Shown: positions 237 through 61,892 of the stretch, in pieces
Numbering within the stretch: position 1 is the stretch's first letter
Layout: the number at the start of each line of letters is the position of its first letter
NCBI GenBank assembly: GCA_030549335.1
Contig: CM060197.1
Coordinates: 17,248,501 to 17,312,500, forward strand
Direction of reading: 5' to 3'
DNA from: Pontederia crassipes
Taxonomy: Eukaryota > Streptophyta > Magnoliopsida > Commelinales > Pontederiaceae
Length of the DNA: 64,000 bases
Program-made: the position numbers and the translations under genes
The notes under the pieces: model-generated
Told to the model about the DNA's origin: nothing
Seen by the model: the letters and a program-made list of their open reading frames with translations, nothing else
The model's database searches: none

Positions 237-248
237 CTAAGAGGTGAT

Positions 249-8714: not shown

Positions 8715-11385
8715 AAAGATAACGCTCTTAGGGATTAGAGTCTTAGAGTTAGGTTCAAAGCTATAAGTTATAGATACTTATGACAACCTTTGGGTGTCCT
8801 AAGAGGTGATAGATCTTTAGAACTTTAACTCTATTTCAAACCGAAGTTGAACCGTTACAATCAAAGATAACGCTCTTAGGGATTAGAGTCGTAGAGTTAG
8901 GTTCAAGGCTATAGGTTATAGATACTTATGACAACCTTTGGGTGTCCAAAGAGGTGATAGATCTTTAGAACTTTAACTCTATTTCAAACCGAAGTTGAAC
9001 CGTTACAATCAAAGATAACGCTCTTAGGGATTGGAGTCTTAGAGTTAGGTTCAAAGCTATAAGTTATAGATACTTATGACAACCTTTGGGTGTCCTAAGA
9101 GGTGATAGATCTTTAGAACTTTAACTCTATTTCAAACCAAAGTTGAACCGTTACAATCAAAGATAACGCTCTTAGGGATTAGAGTCTTAGAGTTAGGTTC
9201 AAAGCTATAAGTTATAGATACTTATTACAACCTTTGGGTGTCCTAAGAGGTGATAGATCTTTAGAACTTTAACTCTATTTCAAACCGAATTTGAACCGTT
9301 ACAATCAAAGATAACGCTCTTGGGGATTAGAGTCTTAGAGTTAGGTTCAAAGCTATAAGTTATAGATACTTATGACAACCTTTGGGTGTCCTAAGAGGTG
9401 ATAGATCTTTAGAACTTTAACTCTATTTCAAACCGAAGTTGAACCATTACAATCAAAGATAATGCTCTTAGGGATTAGAGTCTTAGAGTTAGGTTCAAAG
9501 CTATAAGTTATAGATACTTATGACAACCTTTGGGTGTCCTAAGAGGTGATAGATCTTTAGAACTTTAACTCTATTTCAAACCGAAGTTGAACCGTTACAA
9601 TCAAAGATAACGCTCATAGGGATTAGAGTCTTAGAGTTAGGTTCAAAGCTATAAGTTATAGATACTTATTACAACCTTTGGGTGTCCTAAGAGGTGATAG
9701 ATCTTTAGAACTTTAACTCTATTTCAAACCGAAGTTGAACCGTTACAATCAAAGGTAACGCTCTTAGGGATTAGAGTCTTAGAGTTAGGTTCAAAGCTAT
9801 AAGTTATAGATACTTATGACAACCTTTGGGTGTCCTAAGAGGTGATAGATCTTTAGAACTTTAACTCTATTTCAAACCGAAGTTGAACCGTTACAATCAA
9901 AGATAACGCTCTGAGGGATTAGAGTCTTACAGTTAGGTTCAAAGCTATAAGTTATAGATACTTATTACAACCTTTGGGTGTCCTAAGAGGAGATAGATCT
10001 TTAGAACTTTAACTCTATTTCAAACCGAAGTTGAACCGTTACAATCAAAGATAACGCTCTTAGGGATTAGAGTCTTAGAGTTAGGTTCAAAGCTATATGT
10101 TATAGATACTTATTACAACCTTTGGGTGTGCTAAGAGGTGATAGATCTTTAGAACTTTAATTCTATTTCAAACCGAAGTTGAACCGTTACAACCAAAGAT
10201 AACGCTCTTAGGGATTAGAGACTTAGAGTTAGGTTCAAAGCTATAAGTTACAGATACTTATTACAACCTTTGGGTGTCCTAAGAGGTGATAGATCTTTAG
10301 AACTTTAACTCTATTTCAAACCGAAGTTGAACCGTTACAATCAAAGATAACGCTCTTAGGGATTAGAGTCTTAGAGTTAGGTTCAAAGTTATAAGTTATA
10401 GATACTTATGACAACCTTTGGGTGTCTAAGAGGTGATAGATCTTTAGAACTTTAACTCTATTTCAAACCGAAGTTGAACCGTTACAATCAAAGATAACGC
10501 TTTTAGGGATTAGAGTCTTAGAGTTAGGTTCAAAGCTATAAGTTATAGATACTTATTACAACCTTTGGGTGTCCTAAGAGGTGATAGATCTTTAGAACTT
10601 TAACTCTATTTCAAACCGAAGTTGAACCGTTACAATCAAAGATAACGCTCTTAGGGATTAGAGTCTTAGAGTTAGGTTCAAAGCTATAAGTTATAGATAC
10701 TTATGACAACCTTTGGGTGTCCTAAGAGGTGATAGATCTTTAGAACTTTAACTCTATTTCAAACCGAAGTTGAACCGTTACAATCAAAGATAACGCTCTT
10801 AGGGATTAGAGTCTTAGAGTTAGGTTCAAAGCTATAAGTTATAGATACTTATGACAACCTTTGGGTGTCCTAAGAGGTGATAGATCTTTAGAACTTTAAC
10901 TCTATTTCAAACCGAAGTTGAACCGTTACAATCAAAGATAACGCTCATAGGGATTAGAGTCTTAGAGTTAGGTTCAAAGCTATAAGTTATAGATACTTAT
11001 TACAACCTTTGGGTGTCCTAAGAGGTGATAGATCTTTAGAACTTTAACTCTATTTCAAACCGAAGTTGAACCGTTACAATCAAAGATAACGCTCTTAGGG
11101 ATTAGAGTCTTAGAGTTAGGTTCAAAGCTATAAGTTATAGATACTTATGACAACCTTTGAGTGTCCTAAGAGGTGATAGATCTTTAGAACTTTAACTCTA
11201 TTTCAAACCGAAGTTGAACCGTTACAATCAAAGATAACGCTCTTAGGGATTAGAGTCTTAGAGTTAGGTTCAAAGCTATAAGTTATAGATACTTATGACA
11301 ACCTTTGGGTGTCCTAAGAGGTGATAGATCTTTAGAACTTTAACTCTATTTCAAACCGAAGTTGAACCGTTACAATCAAAGATAA
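8715..11385 (+). repeat. Block A, copy 1 (about 18 monomers)
   Basis: This stretch matches 11674-14344 at a constant offset of 2959 bp. Markers in order are: GTCGTAGAG with CTATAGG (8891), GTCCAAAG, GATTGGAG, AACCAAAG, GAATTTG with CTTGGGG, GAACCATT with AATGCTC, CTCATAGG, AAAGGTAAC, CTGAGGG with TTACAG, CTATATG with GTGTGCTAAG, AATTCTA, AGAGACTT with TTACAGAT, CAAAGTTATAAG, a 1-bp-deleted unit, GCTTTTAGG, then CTCATAGG (10944) and TTTGAGTG (11156). Offset 2959 equals 20 monomers minus the single 1-bp deletion. The match stops before AACACTC at about 11391. Confidence 0.85.
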
Positions 11386-11673
11386 CACTCTTAGGGATTA
11401 GAGTCTTAGAGTTAGGTTCAAAGCTATAAGTTATAGATACTTTTGACAACCTTTGGGTGTCCTAAGAGGAGATAGATCTTTAGAACTATAACTCTATTTC
11501 AAACCGAAGTTGAACCGTTACAATCAAAGATAACGCTCTTAGGGATTAGAGTCGTAGAGTTAGGTTCAAAGCTATAAGTTATAGATACTTATGACAACCT
11601 TTGGGTGTCCTAAGAGGTGATAGATCTTTAGAACTTTAACTCTATTTCAAACCGAAGTTGAACCGTTACAATC

Positions 11674-14344
11674 AAAGATAACGCTCTTAGGGATTAGAGT
11701 CTTAGAGTTAGGTTCAAAGCTATAAGTTATAGATACTTATGACAACCTTTGGGTGTCCTAAGAGGTGATAGATCTTTAGAACTTTAACTCTATTTCAAAC
11801 CGAAGTTGAACCGTTACAATCAAAGATAACGCTCTTAGGGATTAGAGTCGTAGAGTTAGGTTCAAAGCTATAGGTTATAGATACTTATGACAACCTTTGG
11901 GTGTCCAAAGAGGTGATAGATCTTTAGAACTTTAACTCTATTTCAAACCGAAGTTGAACCGTTACAATCAAAGATAACGCTCTTAGGGATTGGAGTCTTA
12001 GAGTTAGGTTCAAAGCTATAAGTTATAGATACTTATGACAACCTTTGGGTGTCCTAAGAGGTGATAGATCTTTAGAACTTTAACTCTATTTCAAACCAAA
12101 GTTGAACCGTTACAATCAAAGATAACGCTCTTAGGGATTAGAGTCTTAGAGTTAGGTTCAAAGCTATAAGTTATAGATACTTATTACAACCTTTGGGTGT
12201 CCTAAGAGGTGATAGATCTTTAGAACTTTAACTCTATTTCAAACCGAATTTGAACCGTTACAATCAAAGATAACGCTCTTGGGGATTAGAGTCTTAGAGT
12301 TAGGTTCAAAGCTATAAGTTATAGATACTTATGACAACCTTTGGGTGTCCTAAGAGGTGATAGATCTTTAGAACTTTAACTCTATTTCAAACCGAAGTTG
12401 AACCATTACAATCAAAGATAATGCTCTTAGGGATTAGAGTCTTAGAGTTAGGTTCAAAGCTATAAGTTATAGATACTTATGACAACCTTTGGGTGTCCTA
12501 AGAGGTGATAGATCTTTAGAACTTTAACTCTATTTCAAACCGAAGTTGAACCGTTACAATCAAAGATAACGCTCATAGGGATTAGAGTCTTAGAGTTAGG
12601 TTCAAAGCTATAAGTTATAGATACTTATTACAACCTTTGGGTGTCCTAAGAGGTGATAGATCTTTAGAACTTTAACTCTATTTCAAACCGAAGTTGAACC
12701 GTTACAATCAAAGGTAACGCTCTTAGGGATTAGAGTCTTAGAGTTAGGTTCAAAGCTATAAGTTATAGATACTTATGACAACCTTTGGGTGTCCTAAGAG
12801 GTGATAGATCTTTAGAACTTTAACTCTATTTCAAACCGAAGTTGAACCGTTACAATCAAAGATAACGCTCTGAGGGATTAGAGTCTTACAGTTAGGTTCA
12901 AAGCTATAAGTTATAGATACTTATTACAACCTTTGGGTGTCCTAAGAGGAGATAGATCTTTAGAACTTTAACTCTATTTCAAACCGAAGTTGAACCGTTA
13001 CAATCAAAGATAACGCTCTTAGGGATTAGAGTCTTAGAGTTAGGTTCAAAGCTATATGTTATAGATACTTATTACAACCTTTGGGTGTGCTAAGAGGTGA
13101 TAGATCTTTAGAACTTTAATTCTATTTCAAACCGAAGTTGAACTGTTACAATCAAAGATAACGCTCTTAGGGATTAGAGACTTAGAGTTAGGTTCAAAGC
13201 TATAAGTTACAGATACTTATTACAACCTTTGGGTGTCCTAAGAGGTGATAGATCTTTAGAACTTTAACTCTATTTCAAACCGAAGTTGAACCGTTACAAT
13301 CAAAGATAACGCTCTTAGGGATTAGAGTCTTAGAGTTAGGTTCAAAGTTATAAGTTATAGATACTTATGACAACCTTTGGGTGTCTAAGAGGTGATAGAT
13401 CTTTAGAACTTTAACTCTATTTCAAACCGAAGTTGAACCGTTACAATCAAAGATAACGCTTTTATGGATTAGAGTCTTAGAGTTAGGTTCAAAGCTATAA
13501 GTTATAGATACTTATTACAACCTTTGGGTGTCCTAAGAGGTGATAGATCTTTAGAACTTTAACTCTATTTCAAACCGAAGTTGAACCGTTACAATCAAAG
13601 ATAACGCTCTTAGGGATTAGAGTCTTAGAGTTAGGTTCAAAGCTATAAGTTATAGATACTTATGACAACCTTTGAGTGTCCTAAGAGGTGATAGATCTTT
13701 AGAACTTTAACTCTATTTCAAACCGAAGTTGAACCGTTACAATCAAAGATAACGCTCTTAGGGATTAGAGTCTTAGAGTTAGGTTCAAAGCTATAAGTTA
13801 TAGATACTTATGACAACCTTTGGGTGTCCTAAGAGGTGATAGATCTTTAGAACTTTAACTCTATTTCAAACCGAAGTTGAACCGTTACAATCAAAGATAA
13901 CGCTCATAGGGATTAGAGTCTTAGAGTTAGGTTCAAAGCTATAAGTTATAGATACTTATTACAACCTTTGGGTGTCCTAAGAGGTGATAGATCTTTAGAA
14001 CTTTAACTCTATTTCAAACCGAAGTTGAACCGTTACAATCAAAGATAACGCTCTTAGGGATTAGAGTCTTAGAGTTAGGTTCAAAGCTATAAGTTATAGA
14101 TACTTATGACAACCTTTGAGTGTCCTAAGAGGTGATAGATCTTTAGAACTTTAACTCTATTTCAAACCGAAGTTGAACCGTTACAATCAAAGATAACGCT
14201 CTTAGGGATTAGAGTCTTAGAGTTAGGTTCAAAGCTATAAGTTATAGATACTTATGACAACCTTTGGGTGTCCTAAGAGGTGATAGATCTTTAGAACTTT
14301 AACTCTATTTCAAACCGAAGTTGAACCGTTACAATCAAAGATAA
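11674..14344 (+). repeat. Block A, copy 2 (about 18 monomers)
   Basis: The second copy of the 8715-11385 segment, with the same ordered markers from GTCGTAGAG (11850) to TTTGAGTG (14115). Differences I noticed include CAAAGCTATAGG in place of CAAGGCTATAGG, GAACTGTTAC near 13141 and GCTTTTATGG near 13459. About two monomers (11386-11673), carrying AACACTC, CTTTTGAC and a first GTCGTAGAG, lie between the copies. From about 11280 to 13455 this region also matches 19693-21868 at an offset of 8413 bp (57 monomers). Confidence 0.85.
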
Positions 14345-14490
14345 CGCTCTTAGGGATTAGAGTCTTAGAGTTAGGTTCAAAGCTATAAGTTATAGATACT
14401 TATTACAACCTTTGGGTGTCCTAAGAGGTGATAGATCTTTAGAACTTTAATTCTATTTCAAACCGAAGTTGAACCGTTACAATCAAAGAT
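13600..14490 (+). repeat. Tandem 3-monomer (444-bp) duplication
   Basis: TTTGAGTGTCC occurs at 13671 and again at 14115, exactly 444 bp (3 x 148) apart, followed each time by a standard G-type unit. In block A copy 1 the corresponding marker occurs once at 11156. The first occurrence therefore looks like a local three-unit change specific to this copy. Boundaries are approximate. Confidence 0.55.
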
Positions 14491-15219
14491 AACGCTCTTA
14501 GGGATTAGAGACTTAGAGTTAGGTTCAAAGCTATAAGTTATAGATACTTATTACAACCTTTGGGTGTCCTAAGAGGTGATAGATCTTTAGAACTTTAACT
14601 CTATTTCAAACCGAAGTTGAACCGTTACAATCAAAGATAACGCTCTTAGGGATTAGAGTCTTAGAGTTAGGTTCAAAGCTATAAGTTATAGATACTTATG
14701 ACAACCTTTGGGTGTCTAAGAGGTGATAGATCTTTAGAACTTTAACTCTATTTCAAACCGAAGTTGAACCGTTACAATCAAAGATAACGCTCTTAGGGAT
14801 TAGAGTCTTAGAGTTAGGTTCAAAGCTATAAGTTATAGATACTTATTACAACCTTTGGGTGTCCTAAGAGGTGATAGATCTTTAGAACTTTAACTCTATT
14901 TCAAACCGAAGTTGAACCGTTACAATCAAAGATAACGCTCTTAGGGATTAGAGTCTTAGGGTTAGGTTCAAAGCTATAAGTTATAGATACTTATGACAAC
15001 CTTTGGGTGTCCTAAGAGGTGATAGATCTTTAGAACTTTAACTCTATTTCAAACCGAAGTTGAACCGTTACAATCAAAGATAACGCTCTTAGGGATTAGA
15101 GTCTTAGAGTTAGGTTCAAAGCTATAAGTTATAGATACTTATTACAACCTTTTGGTGTCCTAAGAGGAGATAGATCTTTAGAACTATAACTCTATTTCAA
15201 ACCGAAGTTGAACCGTTAC

Positions 15220-15359
15220 AATCAAAGATAACGCTCTTAGGGATTAGAGTTAGGTTCAAAGCTATAAGTTATAGATACTTATGACAACCTTTGGGTGTCC
15301 TAAGAGGTGATAGATCTTTAGAACTTTAACTCTATTTCAAACCGAAGTTGAACCGTTAC
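15220..15359 (+). repeat. 140-bp monomer (8-bp deletion), copy 2
   Basis: Same deletion as at 7980, preceded by the GAGGAGATAG / AACTATAAC unit, which here also has CCTTTTGGTG. It lies 7240 bp after copy 1, which is 49 monomers minus the 12 deleted bases I count between them. Confidence 0.92.
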
Positions 15360-18300
15360 AATCAAAGATAACGCTCTTAGGGATTAGAGTCTTAGAGTTA
15401 GGTTCAAAGCTATAAGTTATAGATACTTATTACAACCTTTGGGTGTCCTAAGAGGTGATAGATCTTTAGAACTTTAACTCTATTTCAAACCGAAGTTGAA
15501 CCGTTACAATCAAAGATAACGCTCTAAGGGATTAGAGTCTTAGAGTTAGGTTCAAAGCTATAAGTTATAGATACTTATGACAACCTTTGGGTGTCTAAGA
15601 GGTGATAGATCTTTAGAACTTTAACTCTATTTCAAACCGAAGTTGAACCGTTACAATCAAAGATAACGCTCTTAGGGATTAGAGTCTTAGAGTTAGGTTC
15701 AAAGCTATAAGTTATAGATACTTATTACAACCTTTGGGTGTCCTAAGAGGTGATAGATCTTTAGAACTTTAGCTCTATTTCAAACCGAAGTTGAACCGTT
15801 ACAATCAAAGATAACGCTCTTAGGGATTAGAGTCTTAGAGTTAGGTTCAAAGCTATAAGTTATAGATACTTATGACAACCTTTGGGTGTCCTAAGAGGTG
15901 ATAGATCTTTAGAACTTTAACTCTATTTCAAACCGAAGTTGAACCGTTACAATCAAAGATAACGCTCTTAGGGATTAGAGTCTTAGAGTTAGGTTCAAAG
16001 CTATAAGTTATAGATACTTATGACAACCTTTGGGTGTCTAAGAGGTGATAGATCTTTAGAACTTTAACTCTATTTCAAACCGAAGTTGAACCGTTACAAT
16101 CAAAGATAACGCTCTTAGGGATTAGAGTCTTAGAGTTAGGTTCAAAGCTATAAGTTATAGATACTTATTACAACCTTTGGGTGTCCTAAGAGGTGATAGA
16201 TCTTTAGAACTTTAACTCTATTTCAAACCGAAGTTGAACCGTTACAATCAAAGATAACCCTCTTAGGGATTAGAGTCTTAGAGTTAGGTTCAAAGCTATA
16301 AGTTATAGATACTTATGACAACCTTTGGGTGTCCTAAGAGGTGATAGATCTTTAGAACTTTAACTCTATTTCAAACCGAAGTTGAACCGTTACAATCAAA
16401 GATAACGCTCTTAGGGATTAGAGTCTTAGAGTTAGGTTCAAAGCTATAAGTTATAGATACTTATGACAACCTTTGGGTGTCCTAAGAGGTGATAGATCTT
16501 TAGAACTTTAACTCTATTTCAAACCGAAGTTGAACCGTTACAATCAAAGATAACGCTCTTAGGGATTAGAGTCTTAGAGTTAGGTTCAAAGCTATAAGTT
16601 ATAGATACTTATTACAACCTTTGGGTGTCCTAAGAGGTGATAGATCTTTAGAACTTTAACTCTATTTCAAACCGAAGTTGAACCGTTACAATCAAAGATA
16701 ACGCTCTTAGGGATTAGAGTCTTAGAGTTAGGTTCAAAGCTATAAGTTATAGATACTTATGACAACCTTTGGGTGTCTAAGAGGTGATAGATCTTTAGAA
16801 CTTTAACTCTATTTCAAACCGAAGTTGAACCGTTACAATCAAAGATAACGCTCTTAGGGATTAGAGTCTTAGAGTTAGGTTCAAAGCTATAAGTTATAGA
16901 TACTTATTACAACCTTTGGGTGTCCTAAGAGGTGATAGATCTTTAGAACTTTAACTCTATTTCAAACCGAAGTTGAACCGTTACAATCAAAGATAACGCT
17001 CTTAGGGATTAGAGTCTTAGAGTTAGGTTCAAAGCTATAAGTTATAGATACTTATGACAACCTTTGGGTGTCCTAAGAGGTGATAGATCTTTAAAACTTT
17101 AACTCTATTTCAAACCGAAGTTGAACCGTTACAATCAAAGATAACGCTCTTAGGGATTAGAGTCTTAGAGTTAGGTTCAAAGCTATAAGTTATAGATACT
17201 TATGACAACCTTTGGGTGTCCTAAGAGGTGATAGATCTTTAGAACTTTAACTCTATTTCAAACCGAAGTTGAACCGTTACAATCAAAGATAACGCTCATA
17301 GGGATTAGAGTCTTAGAGTTAGGTTCAAAGCTATAAGTTATAGATACTTATGACAACCTTTGGGTGTCCTAAGAGGTGATAGATCTTTAGAACTTTAACT
17401 CTATTTCAAACCGAAGTTGAACCATTACAATCAAAGATAATGCTCTTAGGGATTAGAGTCTTAGAGTTAGGTTCAAAGCTATAAGTTATAGATACTTATG
17501 ACAACCTTTGGGTGTCCTAAGAGGTGATAGATCTTTAGAACTTTAACTCTATTTCAAACCGAAGTTGAACCGTTACAATCAAAGATAACGCTCATAGGGA
17601 TTAGAGTCTTAGAGTTAGGTTCAAAGCTATAAGTTATAGATACTTATTACAACCTTTGGGTGTCCTAAGAGGTGATAGATCTTTAGAACTTTAACTCTAT
17701 TTCAAACCGAAGTTGAACCGTTACAATCAAAGATAACGCTCTTAGGGATTAGAGTCTTAGAGTTAGGTTCAAAGCTATAAGTTATAGATACTTATGACAA
17801 CCTTTGGGTGTCCTAAGAGGTGATAGATCTTTAGAACTTTAACTCTATTTCAAACCGAAGTTGAACCGTTACAATCAAAGATAACGCTCTTAGGGATTAG
17901 AGTCTTAGAGTTAGGTTCAAAGCTATAAGTTATAGATACTTATTACAACCTTTGGGTGTCTAAGAGGTGATAGATCTTTAGAACTTTAACTCTATTTCAA
18001 ACCGAAGTTGAACCGTTACAATCAAAGATAACGCTCTTAGGGATTAGAGTCTTAGAGTTAGGTTCAAAGCTATAAGTTATAGATACTTATTACAACCTTT
18101 GGGTGTCCTAAGAGGTGATAGATCTTTAGAACTTTAACTCTATTTCAAACCGAAGTTGAACCGTTACAATCAAAGATAACGCTCTTAGGGATTAGAGTCT
18201 TAGAGTTAGGTTCAAAGCTATAAGTTATAGATACTTATGACAACCTTTGGGTGTCCTAAGAGGTGATAGATCTTTAGAACTTTAACTCTATTTCAAACCG

Positions 18301-18463
18301 AAGTTGAACCGTTACAATCAAAGATAACGCTCTTAGGGATTAGAGTCTTAGAGTTAGGTTCAAAGCTATAAGTTATAGATACTTATTACAACCTTTGGGT
18401 GTCCTAAGAGGAGATAGATCTTTAGAACTATAACTCTATTTCAAACCGAAGTTGAACCGTTAC

Positions 18464-18603
18464 AATCAAAGATAACGCTCTTAGGGATTAGAGTTAGGTT
18501 CAAAGCTATAAGTTATAGATACTTATGACAACCTTTGGGTGTCCTAAGAGGTGATAGATCTTTAGAACTTTAACTCTATTTCAAACCGAAGTTGAACCGT
18601 TAC
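18464..18603 (+). repeat. 140-bp monomer (8-bp deletion), copy 3
   Basis: Marker unit of block B copy 1, with the GAGGAGATAG / AACTATAAC unit before it. Its counterpart in copy 2 is exactly 6794 bp downstream. Confidence 0.92.
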
Positions 18604-21600
18604 AATCAAAGATAACGCTCTTAGGGATTAGAGTCTTAGAGTTAGGTTCAAAGCTATAAGTTATAGATACTTATTACAACCTTTGGGTGTCCTAAGAGGT
18701 GATAGATCTTTAGAACTTTAACTCTATTTCAAACCGAAGTTGAACCGTTACAATCAAAGATAACGCTCTTAGGGATTAGAGTCTTAGAGTTAGGTTCAAA
18801 GCTATAAGTTATAGATACTTATGACAACCTTTGGGTGTCTAAGAGGTGATAGATCTTTAGAACTTTAACTCTATTTCAAACCGAAGTTGAACCGTTACAA
18901 TCAAAGATAACGCTCTTAGGGATTAGAGTCTTAGAGTTAGGTTCAAAGCTATAAGTTATAGATACTTATTACAACCTTTGGGTGTCCTAAGAGGTGATAG
19001 ATCTTTAGAACTTTAACTCTATTTCAAACCGAAGTTGAACCGTTACAATCAAAGATAACGCTCTTAGGGATTAGAGTCTTAGAGTTAGGTTCAAAGCTAT
19101 AAGTTATAGATACTTATGACAACCTTTGGGTGTCCTAAGAGGTGATAGATCTTTAGAACTTTAACTCTATTTCAAACCGAAGTTGAACCGTTACAATCAA
19201 AGATAACGCTCTTAGGGATTAGAGTCTTAGAGTTAGGTTCAAAGCTATAAGTTATAGATACTTATGACAACCTTTGGGTGTCCTAAGAGGTGATAGATCT
19301 TTAGAACTTTAACTCTATTTCAAACCGAAGTTGAACCGTTACAATCAAAGATAACGCTCATAGGGATTAGAGTCTTAGAGTTAGGTTCAAAGCTATAAGT
19401 TATAGATACTTATTACAACCTTTGGGTGTCCTAAGAGGTGATAGATCTTTAGAACTTTAACTCTATTTCAAACCGAAGTTGAACCGTTACAATCAAAGAT
19501 AACGCTCTTAGGGATTAGAGTCTTAGAGTTAGGTTCAAAGCTATAAGTTATAGATACTTATGACAACCTTTGGGTGTCCTAAGAGGTGATAGATCTTTAG
19601 AACTTTAACTCTATTTCAAACCGAAGTTGAACCGTTACAATCAAAGATAACGCTCATAGGGATTAGAGTCTTAGAGTTAGGTTGAAAGCTATAAGTTATA
19701 GATACTTATTACAACCTTTGGGTGTCCTAAGAGGTGATAGATCTTTAGAACTTTAACTCTATTTCAAACCGAAGTTGAACCGTTACAATCAAAGATAACA
19801 CTCTTAGGGATTAGAGTCTTAGAGTTAGGTTCAAAGCTATAAGTTATAGATACTTTTGACAACCTTTGGGTGTCCTAAGAGGAGATAGATCTTTAGAACT
19901 ATAACTCTATTTCAAACCGAAGTTGAACCGTTACAATCAAAGATAACGCTCTTAGGGATTAGAGTCGTAGAGTTAGGTTCAAAGCTATAAGTTATAGATA
20001 CTTATGACAACCTTTGGGTGTCCTAAGAGGTGATAGATTTTTAGAACTTTAACTCTATTTCAAACCGAAGTTGAACCGTTACAATCAAAGATAACGCTCT
20101 TAGGGATTAGAGTCTTAGAGTTAGGTTCAAAGCTATAAGTTATAGATACTTATGACAACCTTTGGGTGTCCTAAGAGGTGATAGATCTTTAGAACTTTAA
20201 CTCTATTTCAAACCGAAGTTGAACCGTTACAATCAAAGATAACGCTCTTAGGGATTAGAGTCGTAGAGTTAGGTTCAAAGCTATAGGTTATAGATACTTA
20301 TGACAACCTTTGGGTGTCCAAAGAGGTGATAGATCTTTAGAACTTTAACTCTATTTCAAACCGAAGTTGAACCGTTACAATCAAAGATAACGCTCTTAGG
20401 GATTGGAGTCTTAGAGTTAGGTTCAAAGCTATAAGTTATAGATACTTATGACAACCTTTGGGTGTCCTAAGAGGTGATAGATCTTTAGAACTTTAACTCT
20501 ATTTCAAACCAAAGTTGAACCGTTACAATCAAAGATAACGCTCTTAGGGATTAAAGTCTTAGAGTTAGGTTCAAAGCTATAAGTTATAGATACTTATTAC
20601 AACCTTTGGGTGTCCTAAGAGGTGATAGATCTTTAGAACTTTAACTCTATTTCAAACCGAATTTGAACCGTTACAATCAAAGATAACGCTCTTGGGGATT
20701 AGAGTCTTAGAGTTAGGTTCAAAGCTATAAGTTATAGATACTTATGACAACCTTTGGGTGTCCTAAGAGGTGATAGATCTTTAGAACTTTAACTCTATTT
20801 CAAACCGAAGTTGAACCATTACAATCAAAGATAATGCTCTTAGGGATTAGAGTCTTAGAGTTAGGTTCAAAGCTATAAGTTATAGATACTTATGACAACC
20901 TTTGGGTGTCCTAAGAGGTGATAGATCTTTAGAACTTTAACTCTATTTCAAACCGAAGTTGAACCGTTACAATCAAAGATAACGCTCATAGGGATTAGAG
21001 TCTTAGAGTTAGGTTCAAAGCTATAAGTTATAGATACTTATTACAACCTTTGGGTGTCCTAAGAGGTGATAGATCTTTAGAACTTTAACTCTATTTCAAA
21101 CCGAAGTTGAACCGTTACAATCAAAGGTAACGCTCTTAGGGATTAGAGTCTTAGAGTTAGGTTCAAAGCTATAAGTTATAGATACTTATGACAACCTTTG
21201 GGTGTCCTAAGAGGTGATAGATCTTTAGAACTTTAACTCTATTTCAAACCGAAGTTGAACCGTTACAATCAAAGATAACGCTCTGAGGGATTAGAGTCTT
21301 ACAGTTAGGTTCAAAGCTATAAGTTATAGATACTTATTACAACCTTTGGGTGTCCTAAGAGGAGATAGATCTTTAGAACTTTAACTCTATTTCAAACCGA
21401 AGTTGAACCGTTACAATCAAAGATAACGCTCTTAGGGATTAGAGTCTTAGAGTTAGGTTCAAAGCTATATGTTATAGATACTTATTACAACCTTTGGGTG
21501 TGCTAAGAGGTGATAGATCTTTAGAACTTTAATTCTATTTCAAACCGAAGTTGAACCGTTACAATCAAAGATAACGCTCTTAGGGATTAGAGACTTAGAG

Positions 21601-46900: not shown

Positions 46901-48583
46901 AGGTGATAGATCTTTAGAACTTTAACTCTATTTCAAACCGAAGTTGAACCGTTACAATCAAAGATAACGCTCATAGGGATTAGAGTCTTAGAGTTAGGTT
47001 CAAAGCTATAAGTTATAGATACTTATTACAACCTTTGGGTGTCCTAAGAGGTGATAGATCTTTAGAACTTTAACTCTATTTCAAACCGAAGTTGAACCGT
47101 TACAATCAAAGATAACGCTCTTAGGGATTAGAGTCTTAGAGTTAGGTTCAAAGCTATAAGTTATAGATACTTTTGACAACCTTTGGGTGTCCTAAGAGGT
47201 GATAGATCTTTAGAACTTTAACTCTATTTCAAACCGAAGTTGAACCGTTACAATCAAAGATAACGCTCTTAGGGATTAGAGTCTTAGAGTTAGGTTCAAA
47301 GCTATAAGTTATAGATACTTATGACAACCTTTGGGTGTCCTAAGAGGTGATAGATCTTTAGAACTTTAACTCTATTTCAAACCGAAGTTGAACCGTTACA
47401 ATCAAATATAACGCTCATAGGGATTAGAGTCTTAGAGTTAGGTTCAAAGCTATAAGTTATAGATACTTATGACAACCTTTGGGTGTCCTAAGAGGTGATA
47501 GATCTTTAGAACTTTAACTCTATTTCAAACCGAAGTTGAACCGTTACAATCAAAGATAATGCTCTTAGGGATTAGAGTCGTAGAGTTAGGTTCAAAGCTA
47601 TAAGTTATAGATACTTATGACAACCTTTGGGTGTCCAAAGAGGTGATAGATCTTTAGAACTTTAACTCTATTTCAAACCGAAGTTGAACCGTTACAATCA
47701 AAGATAACGCTCTTAGGGATTGGAGTCTTAGAGTTAGGTTCAAAGCTATAAGTTATAGATACTTATGACAACCTTTGGGTGTCCTAAGAGGTGATAGATC
47801 TTTAGAACTTTAACTCTATTTCAAACCGAAGTTGAACCGTTCCAATCAAAGATAACGCTCTTAGGGATTAGAGTCTTAGAGTTAGGTTCAAAGCTATAAG
47901 TTATAGATACTTATTACAACCTTTGGGTGTCCTAAGAGGTGATAGATCTTTAGAACTTTAACTCTATTTCAAACCGAATTTGAACCGTTACAATCAAAGA
48001 TAACGCTCTTGGGGATTAGAGTCTTAGAGTTAGGTTCAAAGCTAGAAGTTATAGATACTTATGACAACCTTTGGGTGTCCTAAGAGGTGATAGATCTTTA
48101 GAACTTTAACTCTATTTCAAACCGAAGTTGAACCATTACAATCAAAGATAACGCTCTTAGGGATTAGAGTCTTAGAGTTAGGTTCAAAGCTATAAGTTAT
48201 AGATACTTATGACAACCTTTGGGTGTCCTAAGAGGTGATAGATCTTTAGAACTTTAACTCTATTTCAAACCGAAGTTGAACCGTTACAATCAAAGATAAC
48301 GCTCATAGGGATTAGAGTCTTAGAGTTAGGTTCAAAGCTATAAGTTATAGATACTTATTACAACCTTTGGGTGTCCTAAGAGGTGATAGATCTTTAGAAC
48401 TTTAACTCTATTTCAAACCGAAGTTGAACCGTTACAATCAAAGATAACGCTCTTAGGGATTAGAGTCTTAGAGTTAGGTTCAAAGCTATAAGTTATAGAT
48501 ACTTATGACAACCTTTGGATGTCCTAAGAGGTGATAGATCTTTAGAACTTTAACTCTATTTCAAACCGAAGTTGAACCGTTAC
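43929..48583 (+). repeat. Rearranged junction region between blocks C and D
   Basis: About 31 units built from the same modules but in a different arrangement. A second GTCGTAGAG / CTATAGG start occurs at 44482, only 2072 bp (14 monomers) after the previous one, and its cassette is cut short after the GATTGGAG unit. Next come AATTCTA / AGAGACTT units, AGGGTTAGG (45813), a 140-bp unit (46077), CTCTAAGG, GTTTAACC, CTTTTGAC and another cassette from 47580. This looks like the product of unequal exchange between out-of-register HOR copies. Confidence 0.7.
46077..46216 (+). repeat. 140-bp monomer (8-bp deletion), copy 9
   Basis: Same deletion with the usual preceding unit, plus a private AACGGTC in place of AACGCTC near 46090. 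It lies 5170 bp (35 monomers) after copy 8. Confidence 0.92.
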
Positions 48584-48716
48584 AATCAAAGATAACGCTC
48601 TTAGAGTTAGGTTCAAAGCTATAAGATATAGATACTTATTACAACCTTTGGGTGTCCTAAGAGGTGATAGATCTTTAGAACTTTAACTCTATTTCAAACC
48701 GAAGTTGAACCGTTAC
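48584..48716 (+). repeat. 133-bp monomer with a 15-bp deletion
   Basis: The unit reads AACGCTCTTAGAGTTAGG: the fifteen bases between the two CTTAG direct repeats at monomer positions 17 and 32 are missing. It also has AAGATATAG in place of AAGTTATAG. It is the shortest unit in the window and occurs once, immediately before block D begins. Confidence 0.9.
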
Positions 48717-51700
48717 AATCAAAGATAACGCTCTTAGGGATTAGAGTCTTAGAGTTAGGTTCAAAGCTATAAGTTATAGATACTTATGACAACCTTTTGG
48801 TGTCCTAAGAGGTGATAGATCTTTAGAACTTTAACTCTATTTCAAACCGAAGTTGAACCGTTACAATCAAAGATAACGCTCTTAGGGATTAGAGTCTTAG
48901 AGTTAGGTTCAAAGCTATAAGTTATAGATACTTATTACAACCTTTGGGTGTCCTAAGAGGTGATAGATCTTTAGAACTTTAACTCTATTTCAAACCGAAG
49001 TTGAACCGTTACAATCAAAGATAACGCTCTTAGGGATTAGAGTCTTAGAGTTAGGTTCAAAGCTATAAGTTATAGATACTTATGACAACCTTTGGGTGTC
49101 TAAGAGGTGATAGATCTTTAGAACTTTAACTCTATTTCAAACCGAAGTTGAACCGTTACAATCAAAGATAACGCTCTTAGGGATTAGAGTCTTAGAGTTA
49201 GGTTCAAAGCTATAAGTTATAGATACTTATTACAACCTTTGGGTGTCCTAAGAGGAGATAGATCTTTAGAACTATAACTCTATTTCAAACCGAAGTTGAA
49301 CCGTTACAATCAAAGATAACGCTCTTAGGGATTAGAGTTAGGTTCAAAGCTATAAGTTATAGATACTTATGACAACCTTTGGGTGTCCTAAGAGGTGATA
49401 GATCTTTAGAACTTTAACTCTATTTCAAACCGAAGTTGAACCGTTACAATCAAAGATAACGCTCTTAGGGATTAGAGTCTTAGAGTTAGGTTCAAAGCTA
49501 TAAGTTATAGATACTTATTACAACCTTTGGGTGTCCTAAGAGGTGATAGATCTTTAGAACTTTAACTCTATTTCAAACCGAAGTTGAACCGTTACAATCA
49601 AAGATAACGCTCTAAGGGATTAGAGTCTTAGAGTTAGGTTCAAAGCTATAAGTTATAGATACTTATGACAACCTTTGGGTGTCTAAGAGGTGATAGATCT
49701 TTAGAACTTTAACTCTATTTCAAACCGAAGTTGAACCGTTACAATCAAAGATAACGCTCTTAGGGATTAGAGTCTTAGAGTTAGGTTCAAAGCTATAAGT
49801 TATAGATACTTATTACAACCTTTGGGTGTCCTAAGAGGTGATAGATCTTTAGAACTTTAACTCTATTTCAAACCGAAGTTGAACCGTTACAATCAAAGAT
49901 AACGCTCATAGGGATTAGAGTCTTAGAGTTAGGTTCAAAGCTATAAGTTATAGATACTTATTACAACCTTTGGGTGTCCTAAGAGGTGATAGATCTTTAG
50001 AACTTTAACTCTATTTCAAACCGAAGTTTAACCGTTACAATCAAAGATAATGCTCTTAGGGATTAGACTCTTAGAGTTAGGTTCAAAGCTATAAGTTATA
50101 GATACTTATGACAACCTTTGGGTGTCCTAAGAGGTGATAGATCTTTAGAACTTTAACTCTATTTCAAACCGAAGTTGAACCGTTACAATCAAAGATAACG
50201 CTCATAGGGATTAGAGTCTTAGAGTTAGGTTCAAAGCTATAAGTTATAGATACTTATTACAACCTTTGGGTGTCCTAAGAGGAGATAGATCTTTAGAACT
50301 TTAACTCTATTTCAAACCGAAGTTGAACCGTTACAATCAAAGATAACGCTCTTAGGGATTAGAGTCTTAGAGTTAGGTTCAAAGCTATAAGTTATAGATA
50401 CTTTTGACAACCTTTGGGTGTCCTAAGAGGTGATAGATCTTTAGAACTTTAACTCTATTTCAAACCGAAGTTGAACCGTTACAATCAAAGATAACGCTCT
50501 TAGGGATTAGAGTCGTAGAGTTAGGTTCAAAGCTATAAGTTATAGATACTTATGACAACCTTTGGGTGTCCAAAGAGGTGATAGATCTTTAGAACTTTAA
50601 CTCTATTTCAAACCGAAGTTGAACCGTTACAATCAAAGATAACGCTCTTAGGGATTGGAGTCTTGGAGTTAGGTTCAAAGCTATAAGTTATAGATACTTA
50701 TGACAACCTTTGGGTGTCCTAAGAGGTGATAGATCTTTAGAACTTTAACTCTATTTCAAACCGAAGTTGAACCGTTACAATCAAAGATAACGCTCTTAGG
50801 GATTAGAGTCTTAGAGTTAGGTTCAAAGCTATAAGTTATAGATACTTATTACAACCTTTGGGTGTCCTAAGAGGTGATAGATCTTTAGAACTTTAACTCT
50901 ATTTCAAACCGAATTTGAACCGTTACAATCAAAGATAACGCTCTTGGGGATTAGAGTCTTAGAGTTAGGTTCAAAGCTATAAGTTATAGATACTTATGAC
51001 AACCTTTGGGTGTCCTAAGAGGTGATAGATCTTTAGAACTTTAACTCTATTTCAAACCGAAGTTGAACCATTACAATCAAAGATAACGCTCTTAGGGATT
51101 AGAGTCTTAGAGTTAGGTTCAAAGCTATAAGTTATAGATACTTATGACAACCTTTGGGTGTCCTAAGAGGTGATAGATCTTTAGAACTTTAACTCTATTT
51201 CAAACCGAAGTTGAACCGTTACAATCAAAGATAACGCTCATAGGGATTAGAGTCTTAGAGTTAGGTTCAAAGCTATAAGTTATAGATACTTATTACAACC
51301 TTTGGGTGTCCTAAGAGGTGATAGATCTTTAGAACTTTAACTCTATTTCAAACCGAAGTTGAACCGTTACAATCAAAGATAACGCTCTTAGGGATTAGAG
51401 TCTTAGAGTTAGGTTCAAAGCTATAAGTTATAGATACTTATGACAACCTTTGGGTGTCCTAAGAGGTGATAGATCTTTAGAACTTTAACTCTATTTCAAA
51501 CCGAAGTTGAACCGTTACAATCAAAGATAACGCTCTTAGGGATTAGAGTCTTAGAGTTAGGTTCAAAGCTATAAGTTATAGATACTTATTACAACCTTTG
51601 GGTGTCCTAAGAGGAGATAGATCTTTAGAACTTTAACTCTATTTCAAATTGAAGTTGAACCGTTACAATCAAAGATAACGCTCTTAGGGATTAGAGTCTT

Positions 51701-52033
51701 AGAGTTAGGTTCAAAGCTATATGTTATCGATACTTATTACAACCTTTGGGTGTCCTAAGAGGTGATAGATCTTTAGAACTTTAACTCTATTTCAAACCGA
51801 AGTTGAACCGTTACAATCAAAGATAACGCTCTTAGGGATTAGAGTCTTAGAGTTAGGTTCAAAGCTATAAGTTATAGATACTTATGACAACCTTTGGGTG
51901 TCCTAAGAGGTGATAGATCTTTAGAACTTTAACTCTATTTCAAACCGAAGTTGAACCGTTACAATCAAAGATAACGCTCATAGGGATTAGAGTCTTAGAG
52001 TTAGGTTCAAAGCTATAAGTTATAGATACTTAT
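48640..52033 (+). repeat. Higher-order repeat D, copy 1 (23 monomers, 3394 bp)
   Basis: Markers repeat at +3394: CCTTTTGGTG (48791), 1-bp-deleted unit (near 49102), 140-bp unit (49308), CTCTAAGGG (near 49610), 1-bp-deleted unit (near 49683), GTTTAACC (near 50028), GATTAGACTC (near 50062), CTTTTGAC, GTCGTAGAG (50515), GATTGGAG with CTTGGAGTT (near 50663), GAATTTG, CTTGGGG, GAACCATT, CTCATAGG, CAAATTGAAG and CTATATG. 3394 is 23 x 148 minus 10 (one 8-bp and two 1-bp deletions). A private change is TTATCGATAC near 51726. Confidence 0.88.
49308..49447 (+). repeat. 140-bp monomer (8-bp deletion), copy 10
   Basis: Marker unit of block D copy 1. Here no AGGGTTAGG unit precedes it, unlike in block C. 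Confidence 0.92.
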
Positions 52034-55000
52034 TACAACCTTTGGGTGTCCTAAGAGGTGATAGATCTTTAGAACTTTAACTCTATTTCAAACCGAAGTT
52101 GAACCGTTACAATCAAAGATAACGCTCTTAGGGATTAGAGTCTTAGAGTTAGGTTCAAAGCTATAAGTTATAGATACTTATGACAACCTTTTGGTGTCCT
52201 AAGAGGTGATAGATCTTTAGAACTTTAACTCTATTTCAAACCGAAGTTGAACCGTTACAATCAAAGATAACGCTCTTAGGGATTAGAGTCTTAGAGTTAG
52301 GTTCAAAGCTATAAGTTATAGATACTTATTACAACCTTTGGGTGTCCTAAGAGGTGATAGATCTTTAGAACTTTAACTCTATTTCAAACCGAAGTTGAAC
52401 CGTTACAATCAAAGATAACGCTCTTAGGGATTAGAGTCTTAGAGTTAGGTTCAAAGCTATAAGTTATAGATACTTATGACAACCTTTGGGTGTCTAAGAG
52501 GTGATAGATCTTTAGAACTTTAACTCTATTTCAAACCGAAGTTGAACCGTTACAATCAAAGATAACGCTCTTAGGGATTAGAGTCTTAGAGTTAGGTTCA
52601 AAGCTATAAGTTATAGATACTTATTACAACCTTTGGGTGTCCTAAGAGGAGATAGATCTTTAGAACTATAACTCTATTTCAAACCGAAGTTGAACCGTTA
52701 CAATCAAAGATAACGCTCTTAGGGATTAGAGTTAGGTTCAAAGCTATAAGTTATAGATACTTATGACAACCTTTGGGTGTCCTAAGAGGTGATAGATCTT
52801 TAGAACTTTAACTCTATTTCAAACCGAAGTTGAACCGTTACAATCAAAGATAACGCTCTTAGGGATTAGAGTCTTAGAGTTAGGTTCAAAGCTATAAGTT
52901 ATAGATACTTATTACAACCTTTGGGTGTCCTAAGAGGTGATAGATCTTTAGAACTTTAACTCTATTTCAAACCGAAGTTGAACCGTTACAATCAAAGATA
53001 ACGCTCTAAGGGATTAGAGTCTTAGAGTTAGGTTCAAAGCTATAAGTTATAGATACTTATGACAACCTTTGGGTGTCTAAGAGGTGATAGATCTTTAGAA
53101 CTTTAACTCTATTTCAAACCGAAGTTGAACCGTTACAATCAAAGATAACGCTCTTAGGGATTAGAGTCTTAGAGTTAGGTTCAAAGCTATAAGTTATAGA
53201 TACTTATTACAACCTTTGGGTGTCCTAAGAGGTGATAGATCTTTAGAACTTTAACTCTATTTCAAACCGAAGTTGAACCGTTACAATCAAAGATAACGCT
53301 CATAGGGATTAGAGTCTTAGAGTTAGGTTCAAAGCTATAAGTTATAGATACTTATTACAACCTTTGGGTGTCCTAAGAGGTGATAGATCTTTAGAACTTT
53401 AACTCTATTTCAAACCGAAGTTTAACCGTTACAATCAAAGATAATGCTCTTAGGCATTAGACTCTTAGAGTTAGGTTCAAAGCTATAAGTTATAGATACT
53501 TATGACAACCTTTGGGTGTCCTAAGAGGTGATAGATCTTTAGAACTTTAACTCTATTTCAAACCGAAGTTGAACCGTTACAATCAAAGATAACGCTCATA
53601 GGGATTAGAGTCTTAGAGTTAGGTTCAAAGCTATAAGTTATAGATACTTATTACAACCTTTGGGTGTCCTAAGAGGAGATAGATCTTTAGAACTTTAACT
53701 CTATTTCAAACCGAAGTTGAACCGTTACAATCAAAGATAACGCTCTTAGGGATTAGAGTCTTAGAGTTAGGTTCAAAGCTATAAGTTATAGATACTTTTG
53801 ACAACCTTTGGGTGTCCTAAGAGGTGATAGATCTTTAGAACTTTAACTCTATTTCAAACCGAAGTTGAACCGTTACAATCAAAGATAACGCTCTTAGGGA
53901 TTAGAGTCGTAGAGTTAGGTTCAAAGCTATAAGTTATAGATACTTATGACAACCTTTGGGTGTCCAAAGAGGTGATAGATCTTTAGAACTTTAACTCTAT
54001 TTCAAACCGAAGTTGAACCGTTACAATCAAAGATAACGCTCTTAGGGATTGGAGTCTTGGAGTTAGGTTCAAAGCTATAAGTTATAGATACTTATGACAA
54101 CCTTTGGGTGTCCTAAGAGGTGATAGATCTTTAGAACTTTAACTCTATTTCAAACCGAAGTTGAACCGTTACAATCAAAGATAACGCTCTTAGGGATTAG
54201 AGTCTTAGAGTTAGGTTCAAAGCTATAAGTTATAGATACTTATTACAACCTTTGGGTGTCCTAAGAGGTGATAGATCTTTAGAACTTTAACTCTATTTCA
54301 AACCGAATTTGAACCGTTACAATCAAAGATAACGCTCTTGGGGATTAGAGTCTTAGAGTTAGGTTCAAAGCTATAAGTTATAGATACTTATGACAACCTT
54401 TGGGTGTCCTAAGAGGTGATAGATCTTTAGAACTTTAACTCTATTTCAAACCGAAGTTGAACCATTACAATCAAAGATAACGCTCTTAGGGATTAGAGTC
54501 TTAGAGTTAGGTTCAAAGCTATAAGTTATAGATACTTATGACAACCTTTGGGTGTCCTAAGAGGTGATAGATCTTTAGAACTTTAACTCTATTTCAAACC
54601 GAAGTTGAACCGTTACAATCAAAGATAACGCTCATAGGGATTAGAGTCTTAGAGTTAGGTTCAAAGCTATAAGTTATAGATACTTATTACAACCTTTGGG
54701 TGTCCTAAGAGGTGATAGATCTTTAGAACTTTAACTCTATTTCAAACCGAAGTTGAACCGTTACAATCAAAGATAACGCTCTTAGGGATTAGAGTCTTAG
54801 AGTTAGGTTCAAAGCTATAAGTTATAGATACTTATGACAACCTTTGGGTGTCCTAAGAGGTGATAGATCTTTAGAACTTTAACTCTATTTCAAACCGAAG
54901 TTGAACCGTTACAATCAAAGATAACGCTCTTAGGGATTAGAGTCTTAGAGTTAGGTTCAAAGCTATAAGTTATAGATACTTATTACAACCTTTGGGTGTC

Positions 55001-55500
55001 CTAAGAGGAGATAGATCTTTAGAACTTTAACTCTATTTCAAATTGAAGTTGAACCGTTACAATCAAAGATAACGCTCTTAGGGATTAGAGTCTTAGAGTT
55101 AGGTTCAAAGCTATATGTTATAGATACTTATTACAACCTTTGGGTGTCCTAAGAGGTGATAGATCTTTAGAACTTTAACTCTATTTCAAACCGAAGTTGA
55201 ACCGTTACAATCAAAGATAACGCTCTTAGGGATTAGAGTCTTAGAGTTAGGTTCAAAGCTATAAGTTATAGATACTTATGACAACCTTTGGGTGTCCTAA
55301 GAGGTGATAGATCTTTAGAACTTTAACTCTATTTCAAACCGAAGTTGAACCGTTACAATCAAAGATAACGCTCATAGGGATTAGAGTCTTAGAGTTAGGT
55401 TCAAAGCTATAAGTTATAGATACTTATTACAACCTTTGGGTGTCCTAAGAGGTGATAGATCTTTAGAACTTTAACTCTATTTCAAACCGAAGTTGAACCG
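52034..55500 (+). repeat. Higher-order repeat D, copy 2 (23 monomers)
   Basis: A tandem copy of 48640-52033 with every marker at exactly +3394, from CCTTTTGGTG (52185) to the CTCATAGG unit at about 55373. I noticed only two base differences: TAGGCATTAG near 53454 against TAGGGATTAG, and TTATAGATAC against TTATCGATAC. There may be others I missed. The near identity makes this the most recent large duplication in the window. Confidence 0.88.
52702..52841 (+). repeat. 140-bp monomer (8-bp deletion), copy 11
   Basis: Counterpart of the unit at 49308, offset 3394 bp. It is the last 140-bp unit: none occurs in the final 11 kb. Confidence 0.92.
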
Positions 55501-57009
55501 TTACAGTCAAAGATAACGCTCTTAGGGATTAGAGTCTTAGAGTTAGGTTCAAAGCTATAAGTTATAGATACTTTTGACAACCTTTGGGTGTCCTAAGAGG
55601 TGATAGATCATTAGAACTTTAACTCTATTTCAAACCGAAGTTGAACCGTTACAATCAAAGATAACGCTCTTAGGGATTAGAGTCTTAGAGTTAGGTTCAA
55701 AGCTATAAGTTATAGATACTTATGACAACCTTTGGGTGTCCTAAGAGGTGATAGATCTTTAGAACTTTAACTCTATTTCAAACCGAAGTTGAACCGTTAC
55801 AATCAAAGATAACGCTCATAGGGATTAGAGTCTTAGAGTTAGGTTCAAAGCTATAAGTTATAGATACTTATGACAACCTTTGGGTGTCCTAAGAGGTGAT
55901 AGATCTTTAGAACTTTAACTCTATTTCAAACCGAAGTTGAACCGTTACAATCAAAGATAACGCTCTTAGGGATTAGAGTCGTAGAGTTAGGTTCAAAGCT
56001 ATAGGTTATAGATACTTATGACAACCTTTGGGTGTCCAAAGAGGTGATAGATCTTTAGAACTTTAACTCTATTTCAAACCGAAGTTGAACCGTTACAATC
56101 AAAGATAACGCTCTTAGGGATTGGAGTCTTAGAGTTAGGTTCAAAGCTATAAGTTATAGATACTTATGACAACCTTTGGGTGTCCTAAGAGGTGATAGAT
56201 CTTTAGAACTTTAACTCTATTTCAAACCGAAGTTGAACCGTTACAATCAAAGATAACGCTCTTAGGGATTAGAGTCTTAGAGTTAGGTTCAAAGCTATAA
56301 GTTATAGATACTTATTACAACCTTTGGGTGTCCTAAGAGGTGATAGATCTTTAGAACTTTAACTCTATTTCAAACCGAATTTGAACCGTTACAATCAAAG
56401 ATAACGCTCTTGGGGATTAGAGTCTTAGAGTTAGGTTCAAAGCTATAAGTTATAGATACTTATGACAACCTTTGGGTGTCCTAAGAGGTGATAGATCTTT
56501 AGAACTTTAACTCTATTTCAAACCGAAGTTGAACCATTACAATCAAAGATAATGCTCTTAGGGATTAGAGTCTTAGAGTTAGGTTCAAAGCTATAAGTTA
56601 TAGATACTTATGACAACATTTGGGTGTCCTAAGAGGTGATAGATCTTTAGAACTTTAACTCTATTTCAAACCGAAGTTGAACCGTTACAATCAAAGATAA
56701 CGCTCATAGGGATTAGAGTCTTAGAGTTAGGTTCAAAGCTATAAGTTATAGATACTTATTACAACATTTGGGTGTCCTAAGAGGTGATAGATCTTTAGAA
56801 CTTTAACTCTATTTCAAACCGAAGTTGAACCGTTACAATCAAAGATAACGCTCTTAGGGATTAGAGTCTTAGAGTTAGGTTCAAAGCTATAAGTTATAGA
56901 TACTTATGACAACCTTTGGGTGTCCTAAGAGGTGATAGATCTTTAGAACTTTAACTCTATTTCAAACCGAAGTTGAACCGTTACAATCAAAGATAACGCT
57001 CTGAGGGAT
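55501..57009 (+). repeat. Last cassette copy and transition units
   Basis: About ten units. A GTCGTAGAG / CTATAGG start at 55981 follows the block D cassette by 2072 bp (14 monomers), the same short spacing seen between 42410 and 44482. The cassette proceeds through GATTGGAG, GAATTTG, CTTGGGG, GAACCATT with AATGCTC, and CTCATAGG, then reaches CTGAGGG (near 57000). Two neighbouring units share a private ACAACATTTGGG near 56615 and 56763. Confidence 0.7.
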
Positions 57010-61800: not shown

Positions 61801-61892
61801 GGGTGTCCTAAGAGGTGATAGATCTTTAGAACTTTAATTCTATTTCAAACCGAAGTTGAACCGTTACAATCAAAGATAACGCTCTTAGGGAT

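Follow-up and report, generated by a model that had tools for sequence, protein, structure and literature searches.

We examined a 64,000-nucleotide stretch of the Pontederia crassipes genome (NCBI GenBank assembly GCA_030549335.1, contig CM060197.1, positions 17,248,501 to 17,312,500 of the forward strand), here called the window, which consists of one array of a 148-bp satellite. Along this array a cassette of marker variants, cassette X, recurs in the same order at changing spacings. We consider it probable, at roughly 80%, that the array was shaped by layered local duplication and deletion of blocks of monomers, through exchange that was in register and out of position, and that the cassette was carried along.

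Under this interpretation, blocks of monomers would have been repeatedly duplicated locally or deleted, the duplicates lying 8 to 57 monomers (1.2 to 8.4 kb) apart or, in some cases, farther. The blocks would arise via homologous exchange between monomers, in register and out of position, either by unequal sister-chromatid exchange or by break-induced replication that restarts in a neighbouring monomer. The marker cassette would have arisen once, probably stepwise, and then been carried by layered duplications into two sub-lineages. Its changing spacings would then depend on the particular block gained or lost at each event, with no steady trimming to one focus. The cassette copies, the duplicate blocks and two recombinant junction monomers are seen in the sequence; the enzymatic pathway, the order in which events other than the recent pairs took place, and a location of the array in a centromere or other heterochromatin are inferred.

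Array architecture

1..64000, + strand, 148-bp satellite array, 433 monomers plus a right-end partial monomer (Tandem Repeats Finder and decomposition)

Tandem Repeats Finder reports a single row over 1-64000, with a period of 148, 433.4 copies, 97% matches and 0% indels. Decomposition of the window yields 433 monomers, all head-to-tail on one strand, plus the partial monomer, and neither method detected an insert or inversion in the 64-kb array. Most monomers (387 of 433) are 148 bp long; 31 are 147 bp, 11 are 140 bp, and there are single monomers of 149, 146, 138 and 133 bp. They represent 141 distinct sequences and diverge from the consensus at a mean of 1.94 positions per monomer, every missing base counted. 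The consensus has a G+C content of 35%. Stop-free runs reach at most 58 codons on either strand, which gives no indication of a gene. The window is therefore satellite DNA in the usual sense, non-coding monomers arranged head-to-tail over many kilobases. It is an uninterrupted satellite of a known kind, and the copying of blocks next to themselves is ordinary evolution for such arrays.

A recurrent marker cassette

Cassette X was scored with seven markers across six consecutive monomers. Fifteen places in the window carry at least three of the seven, and 13 of these begin with the T33G plus T90A start; monomers 401 and 409 have three markers each without it. Twelve of the 13 copies are complete, and the copy at monomer 302 has three of the seven markers. 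The initial annotation had listed 12 copies. All 12 of its coordinates are right, each being the T33G base of the monomer that starts the ordered marker set. The copy at 44482, described there as cut short, does end after two monomers with 3/7 markers, and the other 11 listed copies have 7/7. The order and positions of the cassette are thus real, and the count is 13 rather than 12: a complete copy with 7/7 markers at monomer 161 (base 23663) had been overlooked. For this reason one reported spacing, of 46 monomers, resolves into 23+23, and every other reported step stands. The corrected spacings (n=12) are 20, 57, 23, 23, 44, 28, 32, 14, 21, 20, 23 and 14 monomers.

8859..9746, + strand, cassette X copy 1, monomers 61-66, type I, 7/7 markers
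11818..12705, + strand, cassette X copy 2, monomers 81-86, type I, 7/7 markers
20231..21118, + strand, cassette X copy 3, monomers 138-143, type I, 7/7 markers
23631..24518, + strand, cassette X copy 4, monomers 161-166, type II, 7/7 markers, absent from the initial annotation
27025..27912, + strand, cassette X copy 5, monomers 184-189, type I, 7/7 markers
33516..34403, + strand, cassette X copy 6, monomers 228-233, type I, 7/7 markers
37651..38538, + strand, cassette X copy 7, monomers 256-261, type II, 7/7 markers
42378..43265, + strand, cassette X copy 8, monomers 288-293, type II, 7/7 markers
44450..44745, + strand, cassette X copy 9, monomers 302-303, two-monomer stub, intermediate type (A56G only), 3/7 markers
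47548..48435, + strand, cassette X copy 10, monomers 323-328, type II, 7/7 markers
50483..51370, + strand, cassette X copy 11, monomers 343-348, type II, 7/7 markers
53877..54764, + strand, cassette X copy 12, monomers 366-371, type II, 7/7 markers
55949..56836, + strand, cassette X copy 13, monomers 380-385, intermediate type (A56G and C13T, no G133A), 7/7 markers

Copies were typed with three further variants, A56G, G133A in the next monomer and C13T in the fifth monomer. Type I copies have all three (monomers 61, 81, 138, 184 and 228), type II copies have none (161, 256, 288, 323, 343 and 366), and the copies at 302 and 380 are intermediate. A core of the marker set spanning four monomers occurs in order 12 times. 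When the monomer order was shuffled 2,000 times, this core turned up at most once per shuffle (mean 0.0005), which rules out chance recurrence of the markers. These data support the spread of cassette X by copying from a single origin.

Could the markers instead have arisen separately in every cassette, through recurrent mutation or short gene-conversion events and without block copying? Some markers are found singly outside the cassette: monomers 19, 24, 28 and 34 have T90A but not T33G, and monomers 79, 136, 182 and 226 have T33G but not T90A, each of the latter lying two monomers ahead of a cassette. Gene conversion could also shift single variants. However, the seven markers keep their order and linkage over six monomers in 12 of the 13 copies, the four-monomer core appeared at most once in any shuffle, and longer common stretches join the copies, for example 9 to 26 monomers among type I. 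Independent origin, which the initial annotation had named as an outcome that would overturn its model, is refuted for the marker set as a whole, and we regard it as having next to no chance of being correct. The single markers outside the cassette suggest, without proving, that the set was assembled in steps.

Duplicate blocks

Sharing of rare variants peaks at many lags in the window, among them 57, 23, 46, 32 and 20 monomers. Duplicates were sought as ungapped diagonals over monomers, with a hand-set score and a cut-off of 18, and all passing segments were counted; diagonals and base differences were computed numerically in place of a StainedGlass-type heat map. We identified 45 duplicate diagonals, each 3 to 28 monomers long, with lags between 8 and 319 monomers and 99.47-100% identity. 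They include all of the diagonals that the initial annotation had named, at 6794, 6491, 4727, 3394 and 1184 bp. The main pairs are as follows.

8711..14332, + strand, pair 20 monomers (2959 bp) apart, monomers 60-77 versus 80-97, 5 differences in 2,663 bp (99.81%)
17577..29982, + strand, pair 46 monomers (6794 bp) apart, monomers 120-145 versus 166-191, 3 differences in 3,838 bp (99.92%)
25110..34699, + strand, pair 44 monomers (6491 bp) apart, monomers 171-191 versus 215-235, 11 differences in 3,099 bp (99.64%)
34996..43857, + strand, pair 32 monomers (4727 bp) apart, monomers 238-265 versus 270-297, top score, 1 difference in 4,135 bp (99.98%)
48717..55504, + strand, pair 23 monomers (3394 bp) apart, monomers 331-353 versus 354-376, 2 differences in 3,394 bp (99.94%)
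57133..63939, + strand, pair 33 monomers (4883 bp) apart, monomers 388-400 versus 421-433, 0 differences in 1,924 bp
59352..61719, + strand, pair 8 monomers (1184 bp) apart, monomers 403-410 versus 411-418, 2 differences in 1,184 bp

The 46-monomer pair continues as monomers 146-156 versus 193-203, with 2 differences in 1,626 bp. Its second copy holds an extra monomer, 192 (28209-28356; A20G, T31A, G72T, C132T), which moves the lag from 46 to 47. One stretch is present three times (monomers 125-145, 171-191 and 215-235), and the second copy of the 33-monomer pair runs past the right edge of the window. For the 32-, 23-, 33- and 8-monomer blocks the next-best ungapped matches in the window have 33, 36, 25 and 9 differences, so these blocks exist as pairs; for the 20-monomer block the next-best match has 14 differences.

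Units are more alike than the monomers inside them (99.47-100% along diagonals of 3-28 monomers, versus 1.94 differences from consensus per 148 positions), as expected of a higher-order repeat (HOR). A single unit of fixed period in a long regular train was not found in the window. Human HORs are regularly repeated in long trains; unlike those alpha-satellite trains, the full-length, low-difference blocks of this 64-kb window exist in two or three copies.

The 23-monomer pair lies within the region at 48-55 kb that the initial annotation had singled out as a focus of homogenisation, with the most identical copies right of centre. We compared five other pairs with it by exact tests. The 32-, 46-, 33- and 20-monomer pairs do not differ significantly from it (p 0.59, 1.0, 0.54 and 0.25, respectively), and the 44-monomer pair is the sole clearly more diverged one (p 0.01). 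There is thus no increase in identity toward 48-55 kb: pairs at 35-44, 57-64 and 18-28 kb, with 99.98%, 100% (over 1.9 kb) and 99.92% identity, are indistinguishable from the 99.94% pair there, and neither the focus nor the concentration of identical copies right of centre is borne out.

Junction monomers

If a block is duplicated through out-of-register homologous exchange, a recombinant monomer is expected at the joint. Its 5' part would derive from the monomer following the block, and its 3' part from the one just ahead of the block or at its start. Two monomers at junctions match this expectation exactly: each combines a 5' part from the downstream parent with a 3' part from the upstream parent, the parents being those predicted.

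60536..60683, + strand, junction monomer 411 (T18A, G72T, G136T), 5' part from 419 and 3' part from 403, exact two-parent fit with cuts after positions 18-118
39575..39722, + strand, junction monomer 269 (A70T, A130G), 5' part from an A70T monomer and 3' part from 237, exact two-parent fit

The parents of monomer 411 carry T18A, G72T and C119T (419) and G72T and G136T (403), placing the breakpoint between positions 18 and 119. With the parents swapped, a reversal tried for this monomer, there is no fit. As a control, only 4 of 3,329 combinations of position and lag fit with a middle monomer of unique sequence, and 411 is among these 4. Monomer 269 fits with cuts after positions 70-129, so that the breakpoint falls between 70 and 130, and its 5' parent may be 253, 285 or 320. 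Its A130G variant is rare (3 of 433 monomers) and is shared with monomer 237, which precedes the first copy of the 32-monomer pair and lies exactly one lag from 269. Variants of frequency three or less are common to monomers that otherwise differ, at a given lag, in 12 of 23,345 combinations.

Several points weigh against our interpretation. Unrestricted recombinant fits occur in 745 of 21,576 combinations (3.5%), so the weight rests on the rarity of the middle monomer. Informative evidence comes from two junctions only; the joints of the 23-, 33- and 46-monomer pairs agree with the interpretation but add no information. Two other joints misfit the simple form of the exchange: at the 20-monomer joint monomer 79 is without the A147C of monomer 59, and at the 44-monomer joint monomer 214 has a C132T that 170 is without. 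Both need a later change or a more complex path. The blocks and junctions are known from the assembled sequence alone, and the observed type of junction is predicted both by unequal exchange and by break-induced replication. A stronger version, in which each block duplication was a homologous exchange seeded inside one monomer and the array is a readable log of single events, the two junction monomers placing individual breakpoints in monomer register and within about 60-100 bp, is in our estimate rather doubtful.

A second cassette and the spacing of units

A second set of variants, cassette Y, consists of a monomer with T97A and T115A and, directly after it, a 140-bp monomer that is without positions 25-32. 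There are 11 copies, with the deletion at monomers 55, 104, 126, 172, 205, 216, 246, 278, 313, 335 and 358, and the T97A, T115A monomer precedes it in 11 of 11.

7832..52841, + strand, cassette Y, span of 11 copies of about 288 bp each (monomer listing)
7832, 15072, 18316, 25110, 29983, 31601, + strand, cassette Y copy starts (monomer listing)
36032, 40759, 45929, 49160, 52554, + strand, remaining cassette Y copy starts (monomer listing)

Spacings between Y copies (n=10) are 49, 22, 46, 33, 11, 30, 32, 35, 22 and 23 monomers. From the Y deletion monomer to a directly following X start the distance is 6, 12, 12, 12, 10, 10, 10, 8 and 8 monomers (9 cases). All of these arms are even and after the first value they fall by twos; several are copies of one another.

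X and Y seemed to alternate, and a fixed ancestral unit of 22-23 monomers was considered on that basis. It was rejected: the 12 intervals between consecutive X copies contain 0 (4 intervals), 1 (6 intervals) or 2 (2 intervals) copies of Y. We also removed one copy of each main recent duplicate, dropping 148 monomers and keeping 285 of 433. The leading lags were then 35, 78, 80 and 95 monomers rather than 20-23 or 44-46, which weighs further against such a unit.

Alternative explanations

The model put forward in the initial annotation was that an ancestral HOR of 44-46 monomers had been trimmed repeatedly by out-of-register exchange, so that the unit shortens rightward, with homogenisation focused on 48-55 kb. 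Its class of mechanism is retained here, given monomers 269 and 411; the progressive trimming of a long unit is not. Beyond the named diagonals, the model gains from the fall in X spacings from the 44-monomer step rightward (Spearman rho -0.72, p 0.045, n=8; starting point picked post hoc) and from the drop of the Y-to-X arm from 12 to 10 to 8 monomers. However, the leftmost arm, of 6 monomers, is out of sequence, and over the whole window there is no significant trend in the 12 corrected X spacings (rho -0.46, p 0.14) or the Y spacings (rho -0.35, p 0.32, n=10). The 11 uncorrected X spacings give rho -0.58 and p 0.064, and much of the claimed shortening disappears once the missed copy at 23663 is counted. 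The supposed 46-monomer unit is two steps of 23, and the lags that lead after masking are not those of a trimmed 44-46-monomer unit. The two 14-monomer units match each other (monomers 288-303 versus 366-381, 78 monomers apart, 6 differences over 16 monomers) and so represent one event copied inside a larger duplication. The pairs at 35-44 and 57-64 kb are moreover as alike as the one at 48-55 kb, or more so. The trimming model is largely refuted and we consider it improbable; a better account of the window is a series of local duplications at several sites, layered over one another and accompanied by losses.

An error of assembly, in which some of the near-identical adjoining blocks were created artificially by the assembler within an unresolved repeat, is marginally less probable still. 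Blocks of 99.94-100% identity close together are a setting prone to such errors, and an in-register misjoin could mimic a single junction. Against this, six of the seven main pairs contain differences, further copies occur at graded identity over the 45 diagonals, a series that one error would not yield, and the two junction monomers hold parental variants on either side. Within the preferred history of layered duplication and deletion, a narrower question is whether the blocks were made by break-induced replication and not by reciprocal unequal exchange, the two being published models (PMC8997354). Duplicate lags overlap and nest in the window, and the review notes that break-induced replication could create nested HORs, complex HORs being harder to obtain via unequal exchange or conversion (PMC8997354). 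The in-register recombinant junctions are, however, equally predicted by reciprocal exchange, and we place break-induced replication at slightly less than even odds.

Comparison with other satellites

The behaviour of the array is as current models expect, and block duplication and chimeric monomers were already known, for example in maize CentC. At maize centromere 10, a recent HOR is described as an adjacent segmental duplication of 10 monomers, and a chimeric monomer as formed through homologous exchange between neighbouring monomers (PMC4806543); both features resemble those described here. In that account the chimera marks a deletion of one monomer, whereas monomers 269 and 411 mark duplications, and the maize centromere is rich in retrotransposons, unlike the window, with 0 inserts in 64 kb and mostly larger blocks (PMC4806543). 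The array also resembles human alpha-satellite HOR arrays in its low divergence, hybrid monomers and whole-monomer gains and losses; for alpha satellite, hybrid monomers are reported as abundant, along with whole-monomer insertions and deletions and 1-2% divergence in homogeneous arrays (PMC9549924).

Several plant satellites share the unit length. Palv148 of Populus alba var. pyramidalis is, by its published description, a 148-bp HOR satellite with homogenisation like that of Arabidopsis centromeres, occupying 29-39 Mb per haplotype; it is reported as non-centromeric, with no CENH3 peak and with monomers more alike than those of centromeric satellites (PMC12046899). The likeness to our array, a 148-bp plant unit in HORs, is one of description (PMC12046899). 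As Palv148 combines this unit length with HORs and is non-centromeric, neither feature shows that the window is a centromere (PMC12046899). An array on strawberry chromosome 1B is likewise described as continuous tandem repeats of a 148-bp unit, again compared by description only (PMC10807706). The likeness to Vaccinium VaccSat1 (138-148 bp; PMC7290377) and to a 148-bp repeat on rice chromosome 10 (PMC10407605) was judged on unit length. Larch EulaSat2 also has a 148-bp unit, but its reported G+C content is 45%, versus 35% here, its mean pairwise identity is about 84%, and its primers match the window consensus at best at 12 of 23 and 10 of 22 bases (PMC8312256). A CENP-B box was also sought in the consensus; the best site has 6 of 9 fixed bases, which is not convincing. 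Three 15-base consensus pieces and their three complements had no match in a text search of the literature. A 43-base piece had no exact match in viral contigs, a 28-base piece had none in prokaryote genomes, and a two-monomer query had no match in plasmids; phages, E. coli genomes and eukaryote genomes lay outside these searches.

Layered expansion is discussed for the centromeres of Brachypodium (PMC10910784) and Salicaceae (PMC12046899). With regard to its pattern of a young core and older flanks, the recent pairs in the window are spread over 18-64 kb, and partners of the left 60 monomers may lie outside it. There is still debate over whether satellite arrays gain and lose blocks through reciprocal exchange or through break-induced replication (PMC8997354). 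The present array, which is free of inserts, carries few and well-spaced marker variants and offers two exchange points that can be located, suits this question well. If the array is a record of single events, extending the analysis to all of it and to other haplotypes would yield the distribution of event sizes and their rate, and could separate unequal exchange from break-induced replication.

Other features of the monomers

Of the 48 variants found a single time in the window, 27 lie in monomers 1-60 (window 1-8858), a stretch with no copy of cassette X. The same one-sided count of private variants at 27 other start points ranges from 3 to 25, with those above 15 (25 and 21) coming from blocks that overlap the first 60 monomers; the mirror count for the last 60 monomers is 2. 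A greater age for the left 60 monomers was considered and rejected, as their distance from consensus is ordinary (1.82 versus 1.68 events per monomer elsewhere) and partner copies may lie left of the window. Given that ordinary divergence, the simplest reading is that the copies lie there or that this part underwent no recent duplication.

The variant G72T is present in 42% of monomers and alternates between neighbours more often than expected (0.65 versus 0.49 by chance overall, and 0.73 in monomers 1-60), with a shuffle p of at most 0.002 in each of four sub-regions. This above-chance alternation is a sign of an older dimeric repeat underlying the blocks.

The consensus has CpG sites at positions 13-14, 132-133 and 143-144. 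All 6 possible CpG transitions were seen (57 occurrences), versus 16 of 46 other transitions of C or G (Fisher p 0.004, in a post hoc test), which suggests that the array may be, or may once have been, CpG-methylated. With only 2 CHG sites, cytosine context gives no help in telling a plant from an animal source.

Two monomers carry unique internal deletions, of 15 bases in monomer 330 (48584-48716) and of 10 bases in monomer 35 (5031-5168), unlike the monomer with the 8-base deletion, which has multiplied to 11 copies.

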